Shown here: piece after piece, positions 14,988 to 25,045 of the stretch
Layout: each line of letters begins with the position of its first letter
How positions within the stretch are numbered: position 1 is the stretch's first letter
Program-made: the position numbers and the translations under genes
The notes under the pieces: model-generated
What the model was told of the DNA's origin: nothing
The model's database searches: none
The model's input: only the letters and a program-made list of their open reading frames with translations
Assembly (NCBI RefSeq): GCF_024204685.1
Contig: NZ_CP100350.1
Coordinates: forward strand, 62,001-126,000
Length of the DNA: 64,000 bases
Source: Gilvimarinus sp. DA14
GTDB taxonomy: Bacteria; Pseudomonadota; Gammaproteobacteria; Pseudomonadales; Cellvibrionaceae
Direction: 5' to 3'

Positions 14988-15230
14988 CGTAATTCTTGCC
15001 CTCTATCGCCGGGCGGGCGAGTCACTTTTCTTTGTTTGGGCAAAGAAAACTAACGAAAAGAAAGCCCACCCCGGCGTCTGGCCCTTCGGGTTCCCTCGCT
15101 CCGGCCAATTTTTGAGGGCCGTATCGACGCGCCGTCCCTGGCGCGGCGATACTTGCGCACGCGTCCATGCGTGCTTACCCACAAAAATAGGCCTCCGCTC
15201 GGCTCAGTCGCAGGGGCCCCGTGGGGTGCC
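14988..15230. repeat. Structured repeat R, copy 1
   Basis: A GC-rich block of about 240 bp, repeated at 15648-15883 and, more diverged, at 23269-23496. It starts CGTAATTCTTGCCCTCT and ends near GTGGGGTGCC. Internal hairpins include GCGCC/GGCGC around GTCCCT, GCACGC/GCGTGC around GTCCAT, and TTTTCTTTG/CAAAGAAAA. In the other copies the stems differ but still pair. The preceding 100 bp after gltX show no feature. Short frames here are not convincing genes. Confidence 0.75.
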
Positions 15231-15399: not shown

Positions 15400-15454
15400 G
15401 GGGCCTTAGCTCAGCTGGGAGAGCGCAACACTGGCAGTGTTGAGGTTAATGGTT
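15400..15454 (+). pseudogene. tRNA-Ala(GGC) interrupted in the T arm
   Basis: The first 49 bases equal those of the intact tRNA-Ala at 16066, including D arm and the GGC anticodon loop. The variable and T-arm region then changes (TTAAT for CAGCG), and after GGTTC the sequence jumps into a hairpin element (15451-15534). A tRNA-like 3' sequence ATCCCGCTAGGC follows the element. Its promoter is also weaker (TTGACG and TCTATG) than that of the intact copy. Probably not a functional tRNA unless the insert is removed from RNA. Confidence 0.75.
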
Positions 15455-15534
15455 CACAAAATGGCAGGATAGCCATTTTGCACAGCGGAGCTGCCCGTAG
15501 GGCGAGGGCCACGGAAGGCCCGAGTGCATCCCGC
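15451..15534 (+). repeat. Structured hairpin element, copy A (inside tRNA-Ala T arm)
   Basis: Order of parts: GGTTCAC; stem 1 AAAATGGC/GCCATTTT around AGGATA; GCAC; mini-stem AGC-GGA-GCT; GCCCGTAGGG; stem 3 GGGCC/GGCCC around ACGGAA; then GTGCATCCCGC. Copies B (22878) and C (23069) keep the single-stranded words and loop style but have different, still complementary stems in most positions. Confidence 0.75.
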
Positions 15535-15647
15535 TAGGCGGGGGTTCTATCAGTGCCGAACGGCTATCGAAGTCCTGAGTGCTTCCGTTAAAGGCTTTTC
15601 TGGGTTTGCTTCGGCGCGTCTAAAGGCGCTCTTTGTCTACGGTTTAG

Positions 15648-15883
15648 CGTAATTCTTGCCCTCTGTCGCCGGACGGGCGAAGCACTTTTCTGCTTGTCCA
15701 GCAAAGTACTCAAAAGAGGACACCCCGGCGTCTGGCCCTTCGGGTTCTCTCGCTCCGACCGATTTTTGAGGGCCGTATCGACAGGCCTTCCGTGGCCTGG
15801 CGATACTTGCGCAAACGTCCTGTTTGCTTACCCACAAAAATAGCCCTGCGCTCGGCTCAGTCGCAGGGGCCCCGTGGGGTGCC
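15648..15883. repeat. Structured repeat R, copy 2
   Basis: Second copy of the 240-bp block. Stem substitutions relative to copy 1 keep pairing: AGGCC/GGCCT around TTCCGT replaces GCGCC/GGCGC, and GCAAAC/GTTTGC around GTCCT replaces GCACGC/GCGTGC. Between copy A of the hairpin element and this block (15535-15647) lies a stretch that resembles the one after copy C at 23168. Confidence 0.75.
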
Positions 15884-16023
15884 AATTCCAAAGTTTGGAC
15901 GTAGGTTTGGCGGTTGGCTAGAGGCCATAATGCCCGTTCTCCTTCCGCATTGTTGAAAAACTCAGCAAATTGCATAAGCACCGTTCAGTCTCGCTAACTC
16001 GCTAAATTTATTGACTAAAAGTG

Positions 16024-16052
16024 TTGACAGATTTCTGATTCGAGCCTAATAT
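16024..16052 (+). promoter_or_regulatory. Sigma-70 promoter of tRNA-Ala
   Basis: TTGACA (16024-16029), 17-bp spacer, TAATAT (16047-16052), 13 bp before the tRNA. Near-consensus and strong. Confidence 0.85.
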
Positions 16053-16065
16053 GCGCACCTCTTTC

Positions 16066-16141
16066 GGGGCCTTAGCTCAGCTGGGAGAGCGCAACACTGG
16101 CAGTGTTGAGGTCAGCGGTTCGATCCCGCTAGGCTCCACCA
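16066..16141 (+). tRNA. tRNA-Ala (anticodon GGC)
   Basis: A 76-nt cloverleaf with encoded CCA. The acceptor stem GGGGCCT/AGGCTCC contains the G3-U70 pair that identifies alanine tRNA. The D arm is GCTC/GAGC, the anticodon stem CAACA/TGTTG encloses CTGGCAG with anticodon GGC, and the T arm is AGCGG-TTCGATC-CCGCT. Its 3' end is the attachment site of the island that follows. Confidence 0.97.
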
Positions 16142-16142
16142 A
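16130..16142 (+). other. Left attachment site (attL) in the tRNA 3' end
   Basis: The tRNA 3' end GCTAGGCTCCACCAA (16128-16142) is followed by island DNA with an integrase 179 bp away. A near copy, GCTAGGC-CCACCAA (one base shorter), is found at about 22778-22791 in front of a second terminator. Inferred, not proven. Confidence 0.5.
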
Positions 16143-16176
16143 TTTTAGTACCTTTGAGTACTCGCACCATCCTAGA

Positions 16177-16200
16177 AGCCCCTAACCACGGGGCTTTTTT
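16177..16200 (+). terminator. Terminator downstream of tRNA-Ala
   Basis: AGCCCC, TAACCAC, GGGGCT then TTTTT; 36 bp after the tRNA. Confidence 0.85.
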
Positions 16201-16254
16201 ATTGCCCCCACTACACTCGCGTTCTAGACTGTACCCCTATATTCGTTTTCCATT

Positions 16255-16314
16255 GGGGGTATATACGGGGGTAACTGATACCCCCGCCCATTTGATACCC
16301 CCAAGCCTGAGGGT
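16255..16314 (+). repeat. TACCCCC-type arm sites at the left end of the island
   Basis: GGGGGTATATACGGGGGTA (16255-16273) is followed by inverted TACCCCC words at about 16279 and 16295 and GAGGGTATC before the integrase start. The other end of the island has GGGGGTATATATGGGGGTA at 22696-22714. These are good candidates for arm-type integrase or excisionase sites. Confidence 0.65.
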
Positions 16315-16320
16315 ATCGCC

Positions 16321-17553
16321 ATGCCGCTAACAGCCAGCCAAATCAAAAGCGCAGAACCACGCGAAAAAGACTACAAGCTGTACGACGAAAAGGGCTTATT
16401 GCTGCTAGTCAAAAAGACCGGCGCGAAGTATTGGCGGCTCAAGTACCGCATGGCAGGCAAGGAGAAGCTATTAGCCCTGGGGGTGTTCCCCGAGATAACC
16501 CTAGCCCATGCCCGCAAGCTGCGAGATGAAGCCCGCGTGGACATTAGCGCCGGTATCGACCCAAGCCAAAAGCGCCAGGCCACCCGCCAAGCAACCAAGA
16601 AGGCCAGTGCGGACGCTTTCGAGGTTATCGCGAGGGAGTGGCTACAGAATCGCGGCAAAAAGGCAGAGAGCAGCGACAAGCGCCTTGTGGCCATGCTGGA
16701 GCGCGATCTATTCCCACGGCTTGGGGCTATGCCCATCACCGATATAACCCCGCCCATACTGTTAGCCGTGTTGCGCAAAATCGAACAGCGCGGCGCGTTA
16801 GAGACAGCCCACAGAGCCAAAAGCTACACGGGCCAGATTATGCGCTATGCCGTGGCCACCGGTAGAGCAGAACGCGACATAAGCGCAGACCTGAAAGGCG
16901 CACTTGCCACCCCCAAGAAAGGCCACTTTGCTGCAGTAACCGCCCCCGATGATGTAGGCAAGCTGTACAGCGCCATACAGGGCTACCAAGGCACCCCCAT
17001 AGTTCAGGCCGCACTCAAGTTATCGCCGCTGTTCTTTTGTCGCCAGGGAGAGCTACGCCACCTGCTATGGGAAGAGGTGAATTGGGAAAAACAGCAAATT
17101 GAGATACCCCCCGAAAAGACTAAAACCAAAGAGCCGCACATTATCCCGCTATGCCGCCAAGCGCTGGCCATACTGGAAGACCTGAGGGACTACCACAAGC
17201 GTGGTGATTACGTTTTCCCAAGTGCCAGAGGTGCCAGCCGCCCCCTAAGTGACAACGGTGTTAGAACGGCTCTGAGGTCGCTAGGCTACGACAACGAAAC
17301 CATGACCCCGCACGGCTTTAGAGCAATGGCCAGAACGCTTTTAGATGAAGAGCTGGGTTATCGCATTGATTGGATAGAGCACCAGTTAGGCCACGCGGTG
17401 AAGGACGTACACGGCAGAGCCTATAACCGCACTAAGCACCTGGAGCAACGCCGCAAGATGATGCAACACTGGGCTGATTACCTGGACAGCCTAAGAGCCA
17501 GAGCAGAAGCCGGAAACGTGATTGCCGGTAACTTTGGAAGTCAGAACACCTAA
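16321..17553 (+). CDS. Tyrosine integrase, P4/DUF4102 type
   Basis: The 410-residue site-specific recombinase has the N-terminal DUF4102 arm-binding domain (PLTASQIKSAEPREKDYKLY, LALGVFPEITLAHAR), a core-binding domain at about 100-190, and a catalytic domain with Arg241 (FFCRQGELRHL), His331-x-x-Arg334 (HGFRAMART), a GH pair in HQLGHAVKD and the nucleophile Tyr368 (GRAYNR). P4-type integrases insert at tRNA 3' ends, and this gene begins 179 bp after a tRNA-Ala in the expected orientation. It should drive integration and excision of the island that ends near 22790. Confidence 0.93.
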   Translation: MPLTASQIKSAEPREKDYKLYDEKGLLLLVKKTGAKYWRLKYRMAGKEKLLALGVFPEITLAHARKLRDEARVDISAGIDPSQKRQATRQATKKASADAFEVIAREWLQNRGKKAESSDKRLVAMLERDLFPRLGAMPITDITPPILLAVLRKIEQRGALETAHRAKSYTGQIMRYAVATGRAERDISADLKGALATPKKGHFAAVTAPDDVGKLYSAIQGYQGTPIVQAALKLSPLFFCRQGELRHLLWEEVNWEKQQIEIPPEKTKTKEPHIIPLCRQALAILEDLRDYHKRGDYVFPSARGASRPLSDNGVRTALRSLGYDNETMTPHGFRAMARTLLDEELGYRIDWIEHQLGHAVKDVHGRAYNRTKHLEQRRKMMQHWADYLDSLRARAEAGNVIAGNFGSQNT

Positions 17554-17575
17554 CCAACCACCGCGAGGCGTAAAG

Positions 17576-17863
17576 ATGGAAACCCCAATAGCTACCGAAA
17601 GCCACAAGGCTATAAACATGCCGCTGTCCTGTAATTATTCGATCACCGGAGACCCTAGCGCAGAAGCCCTAGTTAATGACGCACACACCATGCTAATTAG
17701 CAGTATTGGTCAGTTGATAAGCATTAGCGAAGAGCTAGAGGGTAGCGATATTTCAAAGCGCTGGATTGAAGCCTTCCACGGCTCACTTCGCTTACTCGAT
17801 ATTGCCCAGGCTTGCACGGAAAAGGCATTAACCAAACTGCCAGTTACCGATAGCGAGGTGTAG
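17576..17863 (+). CDS. Small island protein, unknown
   Basis: A 95-residue, probably cytoplasmic protein with no recognised motif. It has a helical middle (SIGQLISISEELEG) and a C-terminal helix. The ATG at 17576 follows GAGG. It lies 23 bp after the integrase and 2 bp before the next small gene, which is similar in size and also predicted helical, so they may act together. No function is proposed. Confidence 0.6.
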   Translation: METPIATESHKAINMPLSCNYSITGDPSAEALVNDAHTMLISSIGQLISISEELEGSDISKRWIEAFHGSLRLLDIAQACTEKALTKLPVTDSEV

Positions 17864-17865
17864 CC

Positions 17866-18138
17866 ATGAGCGAAAGTACAACACCTATCGAGGGAATGAA
17901 TGAGCGCGAACTATCAGGCCACCTGTATGACATATCAAGCGCTGGCTACAGTATTCATCATCTTGGCTCTATTATCCGTGAGATGGCAGAGGACGCCGAT
18001 GTAGACTTTAGGCGGTTACAAGGTTTAGCTATCGCAATTTCCGAGGCCGGTAGAAAAATAGCTTATGACCACCAGTTGGTATCAATGGCGGACTATTACG
18101 AAGAGCTTGCCCAAAAGGCAGGCCAGTACAGTCAGTAG
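17866..18138 (+). CDS. Small island protein, unknown
   Basis: A 90-residue acidic helical protein (IREMAEDADVDFRRLQGLAI, ISEAGRKIAYDHQLV). ATG is 2 bp after the preceding stop, suggesting translational coupling. No domain is recognised. Its general build resembles small phage or satellite accessory proteins. Confidence 0.6.
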   Translation: MSESTTPIEGMNERELSGHLYDISSAGYSIHHLGSIIREMAEDADVDFRRLQGLAIAISEAGRKIAYDHQLVSMADYYEELAQKAGQYSQ

Positions 18139-18173
18139 TTTTCGCAAACCTAATCATCTATAGGCGGGCGTAT

Positions 18174-18401
18174 ATGAAAAGCGAAGAGCTAATTGCTAAA
18201 GTAAGTGCATTGCCAGAAAGTGAACTTGTTTTTATCGAGGCAGTGATGAACACGCTATTCAATGGCGAAAATCTAGCGGATAACTTGGGCCAGCTAAGAG
18301 AGTTTGCGCCAGGTACAGAGCAGGAGAAAGATGAGCGTATAGCGGTACTTGCAGACTTGCTTTACGAGAAGGCTGCCAGAGCCGCGATGCAAACCGCTTA
18401 A
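18174..18401 (+). CDS. Small island protein, unknown
   Basis: A 75-residue protein, acidic and mostly helical (KSEELIAKVSALPESELVF, FAPGTEQEKDERIAVLADLL). GGCGGG precedes the ATG weakly. It is third in the run of small genes after the integrase. No family is recognised. Confidence 0.55.
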   Translation: MKSEELIAKVSALPESELVFIEAVMNTLFNGENLADNLGQLREFAPGTEQEKDERIAVLADLLYEKAARAAMQTA

Positions 18402-18495
18402 CCAGTTACCCAAACCTAGCCCGACGGGGCGAAAGAGGCAGCACCCACTGCCTTTGGTTTGGGCTCTAATTTGGGGGCACTGTGGGGGGTGCAGG

Positions 18496-19581
18496 TTGGC
18501 TTTAACAAATAGGGATATAGCCGTTTTCATTGGGCTCACAAATTGGTTTTTCGGTACTACTGTGCTTCGCAACAATGTTCGTGAAGATGGAAAACCTATA
18601 GGAAAAACTTTTAAAGAGCTTAGGGCGCTACGTGACAAATATGACCCTTTCGACGAACACGAGCACCCTAACGAAAGTGACGAAGAAATAGAATCAAGAC
18701 ACAGTGAATTTTGGAAAATCCGTAAGTCCCTACATGCAACGATTTACGGCAGGCTCCACGACTATGATATTGATAAGCAGGTTTCAAGGCATTACAAGCT
18801 TTACAGGCTTTTAACTTGCGGAAAATTGCACTTTGTAAATCACATAGACAAAGCGCACCGTTCTAGCTTTATCTTGGTTAAAGAACATCTTCGAAAAAAG
18901 AATTTTTTGCTATTGGAAAATAGCGACTTTATTGGGATTGATTATCCTAGAAGCGAGCTTTTGAACCTGATCACTCTAAGAGCATTGGCTTGTGCCATGC
19001 TGGTTGATAGGTATATTGATGACCGCGATTTGCTAGACGCCGCTGTAAACAATCAAATACAGCTCATAGGCGTGAAATCCAGTATTACTGATAAAACTAG
19101 AAACCTTGCGAAAAAATTTCTTGACTCGCTTAGGGCTGATCTAGGAACGGATTACGTAATAGACACGTCTGAAATAGAGCGATTGATGGATAAGTCTATT
19201 GCCCATACGGACATTATCGACGCCCCCTATGATCCACTTAATGGCGAGCGGCTAGGTTTAGTCTATCCCGAAGCCTTCAGGGCAACAATGGCAACGAAAA
19301 GAGATTTGATGGTTAGAGAGATAATATTAAATCTAAATTTATTTTGCATCTTGAAAAGCAGCTCTACTGGAAGATTCCCGCCAGCCGTAATCGTAGAATT
19401 GTTAAACATTGTTGACCCAAAATACGTTGTTGAAATACCTCACCTCAATAAGATACAAGCAAGGTATGACGCGGCCCCCCTTAAAAAGCAGTTGGAGACA
19501 TACAGAAAAGTCCATCCTGGTGAAGCCGGAGTGTTTTACTTACATGAAGTGTTATTAGGGAAAGCCAGAGGTAAGATTTAA
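18496..19581 (+). CDS. Unknown cargo protein of the island (about 361 aa)
   Basis: I do not recognise this protein. It has no signal peptide or clear membrane span, is rich in charged helices, and includes patches such as RNNVREDGKPIGKTFKELRA, HSEFWKIRKSLHATIYGRL and IGIDYPRSELLNLITLRALA. A TTG at 18496 preceded by GGGGGT is the likely start; the frame stays open upstream, overlapping the previous gene, but that part reads as low-quality coding. Base composition is clearly more AT-rich than its neighbours. Its place between integrase and excisionase-like gene is where P4-like satellites carry variable cargo, often phage-defence genes, so an anti-phage or nucleic-acid role is possible but unsupported by motifs. 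Confidence 0.65.
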   Translation: MALTNRDIAVFIGLTNWFFGTTVLRNNVREDGKPIGKTFKELRALRDKYDPFDEHEHPNESDEEIESRHSEFWKIRKSLHATIYGRLHDYDIDKQVSRHYKLYRLLTCGKLHFVNHIDKAHRSSFILVKEHLRKKNFLLLENSDFIGIDYPRSELLNLITLRALACAMLVDRYIDDRDLLDAAVNNQIQLIGVKSSITDKTRNLAKKFLDSLRADLGTDYVIDTSEIERLMDKSIAHTDIIDAPYDPLNGERLGLVYPEAFRATMATKRDLMVREIILNLNLFCILKSSSTGRFPPAVIVELLNIVDPKYVVEIPHLNKIQARYDAAPLKKQLETYRKVHPGEAGVFYLHEVLLGKARGKI

Positions 19582-19601
19582 TGCTGAAATACTGAAAAAA
19601 G

Positions 19602-19656
19602 AATCTTATAAGATTAAAAACGCAAAATTACCGTTTTCAATATTTCCAGTTGGAAA
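19602..19656. promoter_or_regulatory. Two palindromes before the excisionase-like gene
   Basis: AATCTTATAAGATT (19602-19615) is a perfect 14-bp palindrome, and TTTCCA-GT-TGGAAA (19643-19656) is a 6-2-6 inverted repeat. They lie in the AT-rich gap before the excisionase-like gene and are candidate operators of the island's regulatory switch. Confidence 0.5.
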
Positions 19657-19707
19657 CAGTACTGATAGTAATTTGGAAGCTCCAGAAACAATCACTTGGA
19701 GCCTACA

Positions 19708-19926
19708 ATGAATTGCAACGCACTATTGACCACACCAGAAGCCGCTGAATATTTGAGGCTTTCTTTTCGCACTCTCAACAATTCGCGCTATACCGGCTTA
19801 TTGGCCGGAGTAAAGGCACCCCCTTACCGCAAGATGGGCAAAGCCGTTCGCTATGAACTTAGCGCCCTGGACACCTGGAAGGCTCAATTTTCAGAGCAGA
19901 CCAGCACCAGCGAAAGCGCAGCCTAA
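19708..19926 (+). CDS. AlpA/excisionase-like MerR-type HTH protein
   Basis: A 72-residue protein with the helix-turn-helix of the excisionase (HTH_17) group: LLTTPEAAEYLRLSFRTLNN followed by a wing PYRKMGKAVRYELSALDTW. Such proteins promote excision by the P4-type integrase or activate the island's genes. The ATG at 19708 follows TTGGAG. Confidence 0.85.
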   Translation: MNCNALLTTPEAAEYLRLSFRTLNNSRYTGLLAGVKAPPYRKMGKAVRYELSALDTWKAQFSEQTSTSESAA

Positions 19927-19992
19927 GCCCAAACGAAAAAAGCCCCACGCGCAAACGTAGGGCCAAATATAGCGAATTGTTGAGGTGTCATT

Positions 19993-20253
19993 ATGACCAA
20001 TCCAGAGAAACTATCCAACAGTACCCACGCCCAAAGAACCCGCCTATTGGCAGCATTAGAAAGCGCACAGGGCTACGGTATTACCAGCTACGCCGCAAAC
20101 CAAGAGCTAGGCATCTACCACCCGCCGGCCCGCATTAAAGAGCTACGCCAAACCGGCCATAACATCGCCACCTTGTGGGAAACCATAGAGACAGACATTA
20201 GCCGCCCCCGCCGTGTTGCCCGCTATGTGCTAATCAGCAAGGAGGCCAACTGA
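19993..20253 (+). CDS. Helix-turn-helix protein (HTH_39-like)
   Basis: An 86-residue protein with the pattern QRTRLLAALESAQ, GITSYAANQELGIYHPPARI and KELRQTGHNIATLWE. This arrangement, including the GI-x-x-P-x-ARI-x-ELR block, matches the small HTH_39 proteins common in prophages and integrative elements. It is likely a DNA-binding regulator of island genes. Its stop overlaps the next ATG (TGATG read as ACTGATGG). Confidence 0.75.
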   Translation: MTNPEKLSNSTHAQRTRLLAALESAQGYGITSYAANQELGIYHPPARIKELRQTGHNIATLWETIETDISRPRRVARYVLISKEAN

Positions 20254-20420
20254 TGGAACGCTACCTAGTGGAATTGACGACCCGACAAATCACCCCGTTT
20301 GTCGTGCTCGCAGATAGCGAAGCAGAAGCCCAAGAGAAGGCGCTACGCTGTGAAGTAGAGCCAGGCACCCCCAGCTATAGCGAACCCGAGATAAGCACCT
20401 GTAAGCCGTTGGGGGTGTGA
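20253..20420 (+). CDS. Small island protein, 55 aa
   Basis: Its ATG shares a base with the stop of the HTH gene, which argues that it is real and coupled. The product begins MERYLVELTTRQITPFVVLA and continues with an acidic segment (SEAEAQEKAL), reminiscent of small phage proteins that form a beta-hairpin plus helix. Function unknown. Confidence 0.6.
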   Translation: MERYLVELTTRQITPFVVLADSEAEAQEKALRCEVEPGTPSYSEPEISTCKPLGV

Positions 20421-20422
20421 GT

Positions 20423-20659
20423 ATGGTTGTCACTAAAGCACTGGCTAAAAATTCAGCCTATAGCGGTAACCTGTATAACTGTATCGAATGGGCCAAAACC
20501 CACGCGAAGAAAACTGGCACCCCCGTTGCCATTGCCAGGGCGCGGCCTGAGTCGCGCCGGTATCAGGTAATTGCCGAAGTTACCGCTCAAGGTGTGCGAA
20601 TGCTTAACGCCCCGCTAGAGGTGAACGCAAAGAGGGTAGAGCGGTTTTATGGCGAGTAA
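20423..20659 (+). CDS. Small basic island protein, unknown
   Basis: A 78-residue basic protein (SLYNCIEWAKTHAKK-like region reads YNCIEWAKTHAKKTGTPVAI). GGGGGT precedes the ATG; a GTG two codons earlier overlaps the previous stop and is an alternative start. It overlaps the next gene by 11 bases. No family is recognised. Confidence 0.55.
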   Translation: MVVTKALAKNSAYSGNLYNCIEWAKTHAKKTGTPVAIARARPESRRYQVIAEVTAQGVRMLNAPLEVNAKRVERFYGE

Positions 20660-21095
20660 GTCACCTACACCCAAGCGCACAGGTTCGCATATTCGCAAGT
20701 ATGAAACTTGGGTAGCTTCGCCAGCTTATCGCGATCTGAGCTGCCCCGCCCGTTGTTTGCTAGATGAATTTCAGCGGATTTACCGGAAGGGGCGCAACGG
20801 TCGCCTAGTCATATCGCAAAGGCAAGCCGCCGAATTATTGGGGGTGCATAAGAACACCGCGACAAAGGCATTTGATGAGCTTGTAGGGCATGGATTCTTA
20901 GCACTGTCTAAAGGGGAGCGTTGGCAGGAGAATAAGGCCAGGGAGTGGCGTTTAACTATCGAGGGAACAGACGGACACGCCCCAACCGATGATTGGGCCA
21001 ACTGGAAGCCAGGAAAGCCCGTGGCGACATTGCCCAAGAAACAGCCTAACCGACCCAATTCAGGGTGTGCGGTTTTTCAATTTCCCGAGGCCTAA
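20649..21095 (+). CDS. Winged-helix protein, possible replication initiator of the island
   Basis: A 148-residue protein with a winged-helix region typical of plasmid and phage replication or regulatory proteins: YRDLSCPARCLLDEFQRIY, LVISQRQAAELLGVHKNTAT, KAFDELVGHGFLALSKG, ending in a Pro-rich tail. The gene is followed directly by three 22-bp-spaced repeats and an inverted copy (21093-21240), so it may bind these and start replication, or repress itself. Which of these is right cannot be decided from sequence. Confidence 0.65.
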   Translation: MASKSPTPKRTGSHIRKYETWVASPAYRDLSCPARCLLDEFQRIYRKGRNGRLVISQRQAAELLGVHKNTATKAFDELVGHGFLALSKGERWQENKAREWRLTIEGTDGHAPTDDWANWKPGKPVATLPKKQPNRPNSGCAVFQFPEA

Positions 21096-21240
21096 ATTTG
21101 TACCACCCTGGGTATAAATTTGTACCACCTGCGGTACATATTTGTACCACCCGCACGATTTTGAGAGTTTGCGAAAAATCCAACCCTAATAAAATCAACA
21201 ACTTAGTGGTGGTTAATTTTTGAGCAGTGGTACAAATTTA
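21093..21240. repeat. Iteron-like repeats (possible origin or operator)
   Basis: TAAATTTGTACCACC or a close variant occurs at 21093-21107, 21115-21129 and 21137-21151, exactly 22 bp apart (two helical turns). An inverted copy GTGGTACAAATTTA is at 21227-21240. The pattern matches iterons of replication origins. The following stretch to 22148 (about 900 bp) holds no gene that I can support. Confidence 0.75.
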
Positions 21241-22148
21241 GGCCACCATATAATTTACCATATGACCAACTATAGACAGCCTACCAATATACAGCGCTAA
21301 AACAGCGGGCGGCCCAAACGGGCAAACACTTTAACCACCTGATGCACCCACAACCCAGGCAACCAAGAACAGGCAAAACAGCTTCGCGGATAGCTCACAC
21401 ACAAAGCCTACTGCACGTTCGCGAAACCATGTTTTGATAGCTGGCCAACCTTTGACGCTCATAAGATTATTCCGAAGTCAGTAGCAGGGTAGATGTTGAA
21501 TAATGTTGACCTTGAAAACGGATATTTTCGGACATCGCATAGCAGGCCGACTTATTAACAAATCGTAAGGTGGAGGACACGCCCACGCGGTGCGCTGACT
21601 TCCCTGTGCGGTGCATCGCGACTTTAACAGGCGAAGGCGTGTACCCCTAGGCTAGCCCACACCCCCACCAATGCAAGCGCAGGACGTTACGGATTGTTAA
21701 TAACCCGCCTAACCAGCAACGGCTATAAATCGCCCTGTGGCCTTCGACACCCCCAGCCAGTACAAAGCCCGCCCAACAATGAATGACAGTCAGAACGCAA
21801 CACAGGCCGCTCTGTGCTGTTTGCATATACAGTTGCCAAGGCTTCCTTAAATCACAAGGGTTAAACACTAGGTCGGGTGTTGTGTTTTGCGACCCCCTAA
21901 AAAGAGCGGGCCCGCCTCAGAAAACCTCAGGACAGTTAAGCACCTAGCGACCTCTTAAAACCAGTGACGCCGGTAAGCGATAGTAAGCGCCTAAACCTGC
22001 CAAAACCTGACATTGGCCACAGTATATTTTGAGTCCTAAAAAGGTTAGCTCTATAGCTTTGGCCGATAACCAGCCTAATGCTCACCAAGAGAACAATGCT
22101 ACCCTTGGTGGACGTGGGATTTTTACACTTAAAACATGGAGAACATAA

Positions 22149-22511
22149 ATGCAAAACACTTCGATAATAGCTGGATGTTTAAAATTGGGGATTGCTGGAA
22201 GCGCGTTCCTTGTGCTGGTTGGCTGTGCAGCTAAACCGTTAAACCCAGAGGCAACAGGGGTTTTTATTAGCAATGAGAAGCCAAGCGAAGAGTGCGAATT
22301 TGTCAAAGAGATTTATGGCGGCCAAGGCAATTGGTGGACAGATGACATTACCAGTACCAAAGCGCTTACAGAAGGGTCGCGTAATGATCTACGCAATCAA
22401 GCTTATGCCGCTGGGGCTAATTACGTTCATGTTCAGCAAGTAGAACGTAACGAGTCATTTGCGGGTGGTGGCAAAATGGCCATGACTGGCCACGCCTATA
22501 AATGCCCCTAA
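22149..22511 (+). CDS. DUF4156-type lipoprotein
   Basis: A 120-residue lipoprotein with signal peptide ending LVGC. The mature part contains the DUF4156 pattern: CEFVKEIYGGQGNWW, GSRNDLRNQAYAAGANYVHV and a final GHAYKCP with the conserved Cys. The family is envelope-associated with no settled function. A clear ATG follows TGGAG. It is the last gene before the island's right end, so it is carried cargo. Confidence 0.8.
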   Translation: MQNTSIIAGCLKLGIAGSAFLVLVGCAAKPLNPEATGVFISNEKPSEECEFVKEIYGGQGNWWTDDITSTKALTEGSRNDLRNQAYAAGANYVHVQQVERNESFAGGGKMAMTGHAYKCP

Positions 22512-22590
22512 GATCACCCTAAACAGTACAGCAAGATCACACCAAGATTACCCCAAGGTGTAGGGGCAAGATTACGGCAAGGTTGGGGCA
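22510..22590 (+). repeat. CAAGATTAC-type direct repeats near the right island end
   Basis: Words of the form CAAGATYAC occur at 22510, 22532, 22543, 22568 and, degenerate, 22578, at irregular spacing. They lie close to the right attachment region, so excisionase or integrase binding is a reasonable guess. Confidence 0.5.
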
Positions 22591-22695
22591 GGCTGTCACA
22601 CCAAAACCGGACAATATGCCCGATTGTTAGCTGTATCTATTAAGCGCCCCGCACAGATTAATAAATACTTGCTTGCCAGGTCACGGCGATTATTT

Positions 22696-22714
22696 GGGGG
22701 TATATATGGGGGTA
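22696..22714 (+). repeat. Right-end arm site of the island
   Basis: GGGGGTATATATGGGGGTA differs by one base from the left-end copy at 16255-16273. The pair marks both ends of the integrated element. Confidence 0.65.
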
Positions 22715-22777
22715 TCCTGATTTTTTGAATTGGGAAAAAATAATAAAAACAATGTATTGGGGGTGTTATTCGGTAGA

Positions 22778-22836
22778 GCTAGGCCCACCAAACAAACAAA
22801 AAACCCCCGTACTCGCGAGAGTGCGGGGGTTTTTTG
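22778..22836 (+). other. Putative attR followed by the former tRNA terminator
   Basis: GCTAGGCCCACCAA (about 22778-22791) resembles the tRNA-Ala 3' end with one base missing. Directly after it lies a strong hairpin with AACCCCCG/CGGGGGTT arms and TTTTTT (22800-22836), which would suit the original downstream terminator of the tRNA. Together they place the island at about 16142-22790. Confidence 0.45.
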
Positions 22837-22877
22837 TTTGTTCCGCTGAAAGCTCAGCGGGAGCGAGGTTTAGCTCC

Positions 22878-22960
22878 GGTTCACTAATTTGCCGGGAGCA
22901 AATTAGCACGACGGAGTCGCCCGGAGGGTGGCGCACAGGGAGGTGCGCCATGCATCCCGC
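22878..22960 (+). repeat. Structured hairpin element, copy B
   Basis: GGTTCAC; stem 1 TAATTTGC/GCAAATTA around CGGGA; GCAC; mini-stem GAC-GGA-GTC; GCCCGGAGGG; stem 3 GGCGCAC(C)/GGTGCGCC around AGGGA; TGCATCCCGC. It is preceded by two more hairpins, CCGCTGA/TCAGCGG (22842-22859) and GAGC/GCTC. The stems share no sequence with copy A but pair equally well. Confidence 0.75.
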
Positions 22961-23068
22961 GAATCGTCAAAGTCCCATATCCGCATTCGAAGTGCCCAAT
23001 TGGACAGGGGGTTTTTTGTTTGTGGGTCTTGTGGGTGAGACCGCAGACGCCAGTGGTTGACGTGAAGG

Positions 23069-23167
23069 GATTCACTAATGTCGCGGGCGCATGGAGCGCA
23101 GGAGCGAATTTGCACGGCGAACGCCGCCCGCAGGGTGGGGCACATGTACGTGCCCCATGCATCCCGC
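23069..23167 (+). repeat. Structured hairpin element, copy C
   Basis: GATTCAC; an enlarged stem 1 region with a nested GCGC/GCGC hairpin around ATGGA; GCAC; GGCG/CGCC mini-stem; GCCCGCAGGG; stem 3 GGGGCAC/GTGCCCC; ATGCATCCCGC. As in copy A, CTAGGCG and a GGTTCTATCAGTGCC segment follow. The remainder of the 1065-bp gap between 22512 and 23576 carries copies B, C and R3; the short frames seen there are not credible genes. Confidence 0.7.
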
Positions 23168-23268
23168 TAGGCGTCGGTTCTATCAGTGCCTAACATCTAT
23201 CGACGTCCGGTTTGTTCTTTTCTTGTTAGTCCTCATTTGCACCAATCTCTCTCAAGCCAGCTTTCTGT

Positions 23269-23576: not shown

Positions 23577-23831
23577 ATGCGACTACTAGGAAAAGACAAA
23601 TTACAGCTCCTCGTGCGCACTGATGAAACGGTGCGCACCTGGGTGTGCGCATGGGTTGCCGAACTCGCAACCGCGAATTGGAAACAAGCCGCAGACGTAA
23701 GCCACCAATTCCCGAACGCGCGACAGCCCGAACCGGGCCATTTCATTTTTCCTGTCTGCAACTGCAAAAAAGAGGTTTGTATACAAATTGCATTTCAACA
23801 AGGCATTGCCGTTATCACGGGCATACAGTGA
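23577..23831 (+). CDS. HigB/RelE-like toxin, C-terminus apparently lost by frameshift
   Basis: The 84-residue product follows the HigB_toxin family: MRLLGKDKLQLLV, an aromatic W-x-x-x-AELATANWK segment, ADVSHQFPNA, and a core beta-strand region ending IQIAFQQGIAVI. Known relatives continue with G-THxEYDK, which carries residues for mRNA cleavage. Here the frame ends in GIQ-stop. Shifting by one base after ACGG gives AYSEDRIYGS-stop, which resembles the missing tail, so a small deletion or insertion is likely. The toxin may be inactive. The downstream antitoxin starts 12 bp after the stop, within that lost tail. Confidence 0.7.
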   Translation: MRLLGKDKLQLLVRTDETVRTWVCAWVAELATANWKQAADVSHQFPNARQPEPGHFIFPVCNCKKEVCIQIAFQQGIAVITGIQ

Positions 23832-23842
23832 AGATAGAATTT

Positions 23843-25045
23843 ATGGAAGCTAAGGTAATTCGCACAGAAGAACAATATGCCGCGTACCTTGATGAGGTCC
23901 AAGCCCTCATTTCCGAAGGCCCAAAACTGAACTCCGCGAAAAGTGAGAGGCTGGAGTTGCTGACCGTTCTGCTTGAGGCATACGAGAACTCAAAATATCC
24001 AGTAGAGAGCCCGGACCCTATCGACGCCATTTTATTTCGCATGAATGAAAAGGGTCTGAAGCAGGCTGATCTTGTTCCCTATTTCGGTACAAGTAGCCGT
24101 GTCTCTGAGGTTCTGAACCGCAAGCGCCCCTTAACTGTTCAGATGATTCGAGCCTTGACGATTGGTTTGGGCATTTCAGCGGATACGCTCGTTGGTGCTT
24201 CACTTCCTGACTCGCCTACTAGCAAAGGTGTTGTTGACTGGTCCAAGTTTCCTATCAAAGAAATGACGCGTCGGGGTTGGATCGATAATATTGGAAAGAT
24301 AGCCAAGGATAACCTTGAAGAAATAGTAAAAGGCTTCATATCTAAAGCAGGGCTTGAATTCGGCGCGGCTTCGTTCAGAAAAACATTTTACGGCGAGGCT
24401 GAAACACCCACATCCCGATACGCGCTCTACGCTTGGTTGGCCCGGGTTATTCAGAAAGCTAGAGATCGGAAGCCTAAAAATGGTTCATTCAACCCAGAGG
24501 AGTTATCGGCAGGCTACTTGAAAGAGCTTGCTCAGTTAAGTCGGTTCGATACGGGCCCCTTGTTGGCGGTTGAGCAACTAGAGAAGTCGGGCATCACTGT
24601 TGTTATTGAACCCGCACTAAAAGGCACGTTATTAGACGGAGCTGCGCTAAGAGACGCTGATGGGACGCCCATTATTGGCCTTACATTACGTTATGACCGG
24701 CTGGACAACTTTTGGTACACCCTCATTCATGAGGTCGCACATATTTGGAAACACGTGACGGACGAGGACGCCTTCCTTGATGATCTTGATGCGTCATCCG
24801 AAGATCGGCGCGAGGCTGAGGCTAACCGACTGGCTCGTGAAGCCTTTATTCCACGCGTCCAATGGCGTAGAAGTGATGCTTATACTTCGCCAAGTAAGGA
24901 ATCAATTGAAAAGTTCGCTAAAGAGCTAAAGATTTCTCCAGCAATAATTGCTGGTAGACTCCGAAAGGAATCGGGAAATTATGGCCTGTTCTCCGACTTG
25001 GTGGGACAGAATCAAGTACGCAAGTTGTTTCCATCTCCCGAGTAG
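23843..25045 (+). CDS. HigA-like antitoxin fused to ImmA/IrrE metallopeptidase
   Basis: A 400-residue fusion. Residues 1-115 match HigA of the COG5499 type: KVIRTEEQYAAYLDEVQALI, LEAYENSKYPVESPDPIDAI and the Xre-like HTH GLKQADLVPYFGTSSRVSEV plus LNRKRPLTVQMIRAL. The C-terminal half contains an ImmA/IrrE peptidase with HEVAH at 296-300 and downstream EANRLAREAFIP bearing the third ligand region. Such fusions cut a partner protein or a repressor. The ATG at 23843 is preferred over a GTG at 23829. The gene is 15 bp ahead of a Beta-family gene and clearly in the same operon. Confidence 0.88.
   Translation: MEAKVIRTEEQYAAYLDEVQALISEGPKLNSAKSERLELLTVLLEAYENSKYPVESPDPIDAILFRMNEKGLKQADLVPYFGTSSRVSEVLNRKRPLTVQMIRALTIGLGISADTLVGASLPDSPTSKGVVDWSKFPIKEMTRRGWIDNIGKIAKDNLEEIVKGFISKAGLEFGAASFRKTFYGEAETPTSRYALYAWLARVIQKARDRKPKNGSFNPEELSAGYLKELAQLSRFDTGPLLAVEQLEKSGITVVIEPALKGTLLDGAALRDADGTPIIGLTLRYDRLDNFWYTLIHEVAHIWKHVTDEDAFLDDLDASSEDRREAEANRLAREAFIPRVQWRRSDAYTSPSKESIEKFAKELKISPAIIAGRLRKESGNYGLFSDLVGQNQVRKLFPSPE

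Follow-up and report, generated by a model that had tools for sequence, protein, structure and literature searches.

The window analysed here, a stretch of 64,000 nucleotides from Gilvimarinus sp. DA14 (contig NZ_CP100350.1, positions 62,001 to 126,000), contains three copies (A, B, and C; 70-86 nt) of a short, hairpin-rich and mobile repeat unit, which prefers a target pattern that the T loops of transfer RNA (tRNA) genes meet. Coordinates below are those of the window, and the features of the locus lie on its plus strand. Direct reading confirms all three copies, each with GGTTCA or GATTCA before the unit and ATCCCGC after it; the stems quoted in the initial annotation are correct apart from small misreadings (hairpin 4 of copy B, for example, reads GGCGCAC/GTGCGCC). 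Two covariance models were used: R1, built from eight units of this genome taken from tRNA and transfer-messenger RNA (tmRNA) loci and including only two flank bases, and R2, a composite model that contains the T-arm flank. E-values from both are rough owing to short calibration, counts are among the matches listed, and some genomes are fragmentary. Copy A (15457-15527; 88.2 bits with R1, of whose training set it is a member, and E 2.5e-21 with R2, of whose set it is not) comprises hairpin 1, a closing helix GCAC/GTGC, hairpin 2, a CCC(GTA)GGG mini-hairpin, and hairpin 4. The sequence in front of it (15400-15456, ending GGTTCA) is near-identical to the 5' part of the intact tRNA-Ala (ggc) at 16066-16141 (ARAGORN; Rfam), both by direct comparison and by BLAST (query 1-56 against the intact tRNA-Ala region, 95%), and the unit enters at the T loop; the T-arm 3' half and acceptor start (ATCCCGCTAGGC) follow at 15528-15539, after which the acceptor end has decayed. 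The proposal that copy A sits exactly at the T loop of a tRNA-Ala therefore stands as to position, whereas its host is not the working tRNA, but an extra, decayed copy (15400-15539) whose first base lies 666 nt before the start of the intact gene (16066).

An integrase gene follows the intact tRNA-Ala, at the start of an apparent small integrase island (16066-22790, with an int-alpA RNA at 18409-18477 by Rfam), and an old tRNA-Ala 3' end (GAGCTAGGCCCACCA, 22776-22790) is taken as the far side of that island. Next come a terminator-like hairpin (22801-22838), an antisense T-arm half (GCGGGAGCGA, 22857-22866) in which GCGGGA pairs with the TCCCGC after the unit, the T-arm 5' half GGTTCA (22878-22883), copy B (22884-22953; R1 71.5 bits, as a training member; R2 E 3.8e-14), and the T-arm 3' half ATCCCGC (22954-22960). 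An antisense T-arm remnant containing GGGTGAGA, which resembles the TGAGAA motif of the E. coli RtT repeat, lies at 23032-23056, and precedes copy C (23075-23160; R1 51.3 bits; R2 E 4.2e-9; in neither training set), after which ATCCCGCTAGGC, again a T-arm 3' half and acceptor start, occupies 23161-23172. Because the integrase gene follows the intact tRNA-Ala, and the old tRNA-Ala 3' end precedes copy B, units B and C probably belong to the tRNA-Ala locus too, separated from the tRNA by the island. Copy C is the most decayed of the three, its hairpin 1 being broken up, and folded by itself it is hardly more stable than shuffled sequences (z -1.2, against -2.6 and -3.8 for copies A and B).

Hairpin 1 (9 bp) opens the unit, and is followed by a closing helix enclosing hairpin 2, a CCC(GNA)GGG mini-hairpin, and hairpin 4, whose loop is ANGGA. 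Mini-hairpins of the C(GNA)G type are very stable folds of single-stranded DNA, which is compatible with RNA as well. Units in the family are mostly 71-76 nt long, with ends set by head-to-tail arrays as the C of hairpin 1 and a terminal GTGA; two loci (L097, L098) have three units in tandem within one T loop (73-75 nt, exact ends). When eight units of this genome are aligned, the closing helix is GCAC/GTGC or GAC/GTC and the hairpin 4 loop is ANGGAY; 93.5% of cells pair, and both partners vary in 15 of 27 pairs, which none of 500 shuffles reach. In other genomes R1 gathered 76 matches at 44 loci, and across the 66 distinct units among them, in an alignment fitted to that model, 89.2% of cells pair, 26 of 27 pairs change on both sides, and 265 cells are doubly changed compared with 80 in shuffles. 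Covariation far above chance in both sets bears out the earlier suggestion of selection on folded sequence, structure being kept while sequence changes.

In this genome, R1 yields 26 matches at E up to 10 and 21 at E up to 0.0021 (among the 150 of 552 candidates that were scored), eight of the latter being its training units. All 21 follow tRNA, tmRNA or 5S ribosomal RNA (rRNA) genes: tRNA-Ala (3, with B and C beyond the island), tRNA-Asp (3), tRNA-Phe, tRNA-Leu and tRNA-Ser (2 each), tmRNA (3, one at a distance of about 2 kb), and two 5S genes (6); an additional element behind tRNA-Met was recognized by eye. Matches extend to 92 of 120 genomes of the family (Cellvibrionaceae; R1, E up to 0.1) and 144 of 369 genomes and 112 of 272 genera of the class (Gammaproteobacteria; R1, E up to 0.001), while R2 finds matches in 102 of 398 genomes of the phylum (Pseudomonadota; E up to 0.001), among them members of several families from beyond the class, with many genomes matched in one such family. 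A plasmid search returned one weak match, in a 4.9-Mb record, a phage search returned none, and an exact pattern search of viral contigs returned three stretches, none with a tRNA. Some units recur in larger contexts. At L095 and L096 (G096) and L094 (G064) they lie every few kb with the same flanks, apparently copied together with a repeated gene or segment; at L154 (G293) seven units occupy about 2 kb, and some touch or overlap group II intron matches (1576-1666 and 1856-2034); and at L084, L086, L087, L108, and L109 the unit forms part of a recurrent composite repeat with further hairpin-like sequence, with no tRNA in the flanks shown.

The link to tRNA genes was assessed on top matches, one from each of the 29 best-scoring class genomes and from each of 29 family genomes. 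Fourteen of the class matches lie within 300 nt downstream of a tRNA or tmRNA gene on its strand (2 are upstream of one and 13 near none), as do ten of the family matches (19 are near none); placement on the opposite strand downstream of such a gene was seen in none of the 58, and the chance of a top match falling within 300 nt downstream is about 0.2% per site. Proximity to tRNA is not built into R1, with its two flank bases, though its eight training units come from tRNA or tmRNA loci. An exact scan of named genomes for a T arm joined to a unit start, which required GGTTC and so shows which genes are used and not a preference, found 61 sites in 55 stretches, with a tRNA or tmRNA within 1.5 kb upstream in 45, a contig edge in 4, and none upstream in 12. 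Among 55 sites with full flanks, 41 lie no more than 300 nt from the RNA gene, and for 35 of the 41 the distance is 66-97 nt. The genes are dominated by tRNA-Ser (24), followed by Arg, Gly, Lys, Asp, Gln, tmRNA, and Tyr.

A full locus begins with an intact tRNA with CCA and its terminator, continues through an antisense T arm and the T-arm 5' half (GTTCRA) to the unit, and closes with the T-arm 3' half, the acceptor with CCA, and a second, similar terminator; some sites lack the full set. Behind tRNAs the unit occupies the T loop (GTTCRA^) of an extra T-arm copy and the working tRNA is intact, which supports the idea that the latter is spared by its spare T arm. The T-arm 3' half follows the unit at 32 of the 41 sites behind a tRNA. 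At these sites the antisense stretch matches the 3' end of the adjacent tRNA over at least 10 nt in 14 of 41 cases (2.9% for other tRNA species), and over at least 7 nt in 27 of 41 (24% for other species); a [CT]GAGA[AG] motif occurs in the antisense stretch at 11 of 55 sites, compared with 2.7% of control stretches. At L152 the terminator palindrome extends, by eye, into the CCA and acceptor, as though copying had turned back at the terminator hairpin and run into the tRNA 3' end. Behind tRNA-Asp at L101, the insertion is exact (GGGTTCGA, unit, GTCCCGTCC). Units can also be inverted: this is the orientation behind tRNA-Phe and tRNA-Leu of this genome, and forward and inverted units appear by eye behind a single tRNA-Phe in a sister genome (L229).

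Mobility and an exact T-loop position, both part of the initial annotation, are upheld; T loops are nevertheless a preferred and not the sole target. The T-arm (TTCRA) flank is present at 28 and absent at 58 of 86 non-redundant sites, and at these 58 the flanks retain A at -1 (54 sites, a base that the model itself partly favours), G at -2 (37), and A at +1 (30). The target preference is therefore (Y)GA^AYCC, a pattern that T loops meet. A general insertion into hairpin loops, a reading prompted by a single unit between the arms of a terminator-like hairpin (L102), was rejected, as flank pairing at 87 non-redundant sites averages -7.4 kcal compared with -7.1 kcal for mismatched flanks; long inverted repeats do surround a few sites, since 4 of the 58 without a T arm score at least 11, versus 0.3% of mismatched pairs. 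To the right of copy C (23577-25042) lies a HigB-like gene (Pfam HigB_toxin), and after it a gene that encodes an IrrE-like peptidase domain and has a weak helix-turn-helix match; a pair that looks by eye like HigB/HigA stands between two units behind the tmRNA at L011. HigB-like genes beside units prompted consideration of integron gene cassettes, whose attC core is GTTRRRY; this was likewise rejected, given that the T-arm flank, GTTC(G)A-C, has C as its fourth base, and that GTT is absent at other sites.

The unit is mobile, and the clearest case is a 72-nt copy in frame within prmA of G232 (Pfam PrmA over residues 15-332). It is absent from the sister genome G488 (93-95% protein identity) and from G349, leaving a gap in the DNA alignment of both, and the protein match to PrmA of G488 is split at residues 55/78 where the DNA adjoins; to judge from these relatives, the unit would represent a gain. 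At the tRNA-Ser(GGA) locus a unit is present in Gilvimarinus sp. DA14 and four congeners, whereas G066 lacks the unit and has just one terminator, G086 has no unit in the stretch read, and G036 retains a decayed remnant. The two terminators of this locus are mostly more alike within a genome (identities of 0.96, 0.86, 0.65, 1.00, and 0.73 in five genomes; mean 0.84) than between species (0.59; 73 comparisons), which suggests that arrays mostly turn over by recombination or form anew.

These loci resemble the RtT/RttR repeats of E. coli. RttR, annotated behind tyrV, reads GGGGAAGGATGAGAAGCTTCGACCAAGGTTCGA, a unit with CCCGAAGGGCGA, GAGTA, and ATCCTTCCCCCACCACCA. R2, which was built from 14 composites without E. 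coli, chosen for a TGAGAA-like motif that E. coli also has, matches all three RttR copies of tyrT (E 1.6e-9, 3.1e-9, and 1.8e-8 in 1.4 kb), as it does the three window copies, whereas R1 alone reaches E 0.0093 on RttR. Because a model built without E. coli matches all three repeats, RtT/RttR is, at the level of sequence comparison, a distant relative, a composite element of common ancestry, and the family is accordingly not wholly new. Of 5426 E. coli genomes, 4692 have RtT-like places, each between 1 and 14 of them. Naville and Gautheret (2010; PMC2965389) noted RtT-like repeats elsewhere in Enterobacteria, and RtT-like BIME elements upstream of rbfA; R2 has no match in 30 kb of the E. coli rbfA-infB region.

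We propose, with moderate confidence, that the units are short mobile repeats of a non-autonomous kind, forming a widespread family to which E. coli RtT is distantly related; that an enzyme moves the unit into T-loop-like sites; that spare tRNA 3' ends arise by fold-back copying; and that the resulting array is transcribed. The enzyme would be a recombinase or transposase, probably acting on single-stranded DNA, and its insertions would survive only where the tRNA 3' end is present in a spare copy, such copies being generated by fold-back copying at the terminator hairpin. Copies might then expand and contract through recombination between repeated blocks of T-arm 3' half, acceptor, CCA, and terminator, while read-through of the tRNA terminator would transcribe the array, as reported for E. 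coli RtT, and the folded product may bind CsrA through its GGA loops.

Several observations weigh against this proposal. No moving enzyme was found, genes for Y1 transposases being absent at E 1e-3 from G025, which has 33 units, and no unit was present in the 30 Y1 loci searched. DNA insertion alone does not account for the 24 of 24 tRNA-linked top matches that lie on the tRNA strand; in this genome, 12 of 21 units share the strand of their RNA gene and 9 oppose it. The full 18-nt tRNA 3' end (up to 3 mismatches) follows the unit at only 15 of the 41 sites. There is only one clean empty site in a gene, prmA being the gene for which relatives were compared and most other in-gene sites lying in high-GC DNA, which is commonly rich in open frames; and the TATGA that flanks the filled prmA site on both sides, being also the end of the unit itself and perhaps a matter of chance, leaves target duplication unproven. 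The terminators of G081 at tRNA-Ser(GGA) are only 0.65 identical, the first being closer to that of Gilvimarinus sp. DA14. Evidence regarding strand is mixed. Across hairpins 1-4, G-T mismatches exceed A-C mismatches (48 vs 9, under a model that favours G-U), suggesting that one particular strand is folded; 25 of the 48, however, are in the mini-hairpin, and in the closing helix the bias is the opposite one (2 G-T vs 23 A-C). As for the relation to RtT, the Rfam model gives sub-threshold matches in 2 of 21 T-arm loci, the best at 40.5 bits (L167; up to 36.9 at L165) against a gathering score of 45; it has no match in 18 loci mostly without T-arm flanks, nor for window copies A, B, and C, which by the gathering score fall outside RF00391 as filed.

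Placement on the tRNA strand favours either an oriented insertion or a role as RNA. A rival explanation builds on the latter: that the unit is chiefly a functional module of RNA produced by read-through from tRNA, tmRNA or rRNA genes, for example a small RNA that binds CsrA or Hfq like RrA/RrB/RrF, and that it has spread with duplicated tRNA ends through selection on the RNA and not by transposition. The loops fit this idea, as an ANGGA loop in hairpin 4 (59 of 66 distinct units) and GGA in the hairpin 1 loop (64 of 66, in both cases under a model built from such loops) are kept while the stems drift; so do the location of all 21 better matches of this genome behind stable-RNA genes and the common strand of the 24 tRNA-linked top matches. 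Since GGA loops fit CsrA sites, a transcribed role, perhaps in binding CsrA, is plausible from the predicted fold, and there is precedent in the rrn-linked RrB RNA of E. coli, which binds CsrA via GGA sites (PMC8144298), and in RtT RNAs on northern blots of Actinobacillus (PMC4986893). Yet a tRNA within 300 nt is lacking for 13 of the 29 top matches in the class and for 19 of the 29 in the family, and the inverted units of this genome (9 of 21) would give UCC and not GGA in the transcript of the RNA gene, which speaks against an RNA role there. The in-frame insertion in prmA, the hairpin 4 of E. coli RttR, which by eye lacks a GGA loop, and a table in PMC4606813 that lists RttR at 97 +/- 9% with no effect marked, add to the case against, and we regard this chiefly RNA-based explanation as possible and, on balance, unlikely.

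A different role for transcripts can be envisaged, in which the unit enters T loops in the form of RNA or single-stranded DNA, and copying then takes in both the unit and the tRNA 3' end. The folded terminator hairpin would prime synthesis that runs back over CCA, acceptor, and T arm, yielding the mirror-image antisense T arm, and then forward again; tRNA transcripts would be the vehicle, and RtT repeats the traces. We think this improbable. More conventionally, the units could be miniature derivatives of IS200/IS605 or REP-RAYT elements, moved by a Y1 (HUH) transposase that acts on single-stranded hairpins. Hairpins near both ends, the lack of visible long terminal inverted repeats, a preference on the 5' target side, and a similar short right-end sequence (GTGA) are all in keeping with this, and Y1 genes are common (94 of 120 family genomes, 18 of 20 others). 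Such genes are not linked to units, however: none of the 30 Y1 genes whose loci were searched adjoins a unit; unit-bearing genomes G025, G043, G005, G032, G145, and G181 have no Y1 match at E<=1e-3; and the GNAG step does not keep the GTAG foot of REP, such that we give this origin little credence. Least credible is an origin that dispenses with transposition altogether and relies purely on slippage and recombination between tRNA 3' ends. Likeness of terminators within a locus, tandem arrays, and the variation from 1 to 14 RtT-like places among E. coli genomes that have them are compatible with it, but distant genera share the same core behind Asp, Ser, Arg, Gly, Lys, Gln, Tyr, Ala, Glu, Pro, and tmRNA genes, and prmA holds a unit whose site is empty in relatives.

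The mobile-element interpretation, which rests on exact ends, target preference, and the empty site, turns the tyrT repeats of E. coli, seemingly an isolated curiosity, into distant members of a testable system whose family is present in 144 of 369 sampled class genomes. If correct, it would add the T loop to the landing sites of tiny hairpin elements, explain the spare tRNA 3' ends behind tRNA genes, and provide a possible growth-coupled source of CsrA-binding RNA.

Several other short repeats and RNAs bear a partial likeness to the family. Like Rickettsia palindromic elements, which are short repeats inserted in frame in genes, the unit can enter a reading frame, although there is one clear case here, and the structure and hosts differ. 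REP/BIME and REPIN elements with their RAYT are also short, hairpin-forming, numerous, and found in both orientations, whereas the present unit has four hairpins, a T-loop preference, and no linked Y1 gene. TwoAYGGAY RNA (RF01731) shares GGA-loop hairpins, and differs in hairpin length and order; copy A has no match to it. One match above the gathering score lies about 250 nt upstream of copy A (15096-15200, minus strand) and a similar repeat near 15660-15870, both belonging to a longer repeat that recurs in the genome; three of the four ANGGAN-loop hairpins with 6-bp arms in the window fall inside repeats of this type. RrA/RrB/RrF, from the dual terminators of E. coli rrn operons, are short RNAs with GGA sites behind a stable-RNA operon (PMC8144298), and units likewise lie behind the two 5S genes examined here; the available text of that source describes no T-arm copies, and CsrA binding was shown for RrB, whereas for the present units it would be a prediction from the loops. 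No description of a class-wide, T-loop-nested, RtT-like family was found among the matches listed in open-licence titles and abstracts. The distant relative RtT/RttR (RF00391, tyrT-tpr) shares with many loci of the family, though not with all, the order of its parts, which in E. coli are arranged in tandem: tRNA, spacer, antisense T arm with TGAGAA, GGTTCGA, a structured unit with CCCGAAGGG, GAGTA, and a T-arm 3' half that runs on into acceptor and CCA. Its stems and the loops of hairpins 1 and 4 are not alike, and the range of the family described here takes in many tRNAs, tmRNA and rRNA as well as sites with no RNA gene nearby.

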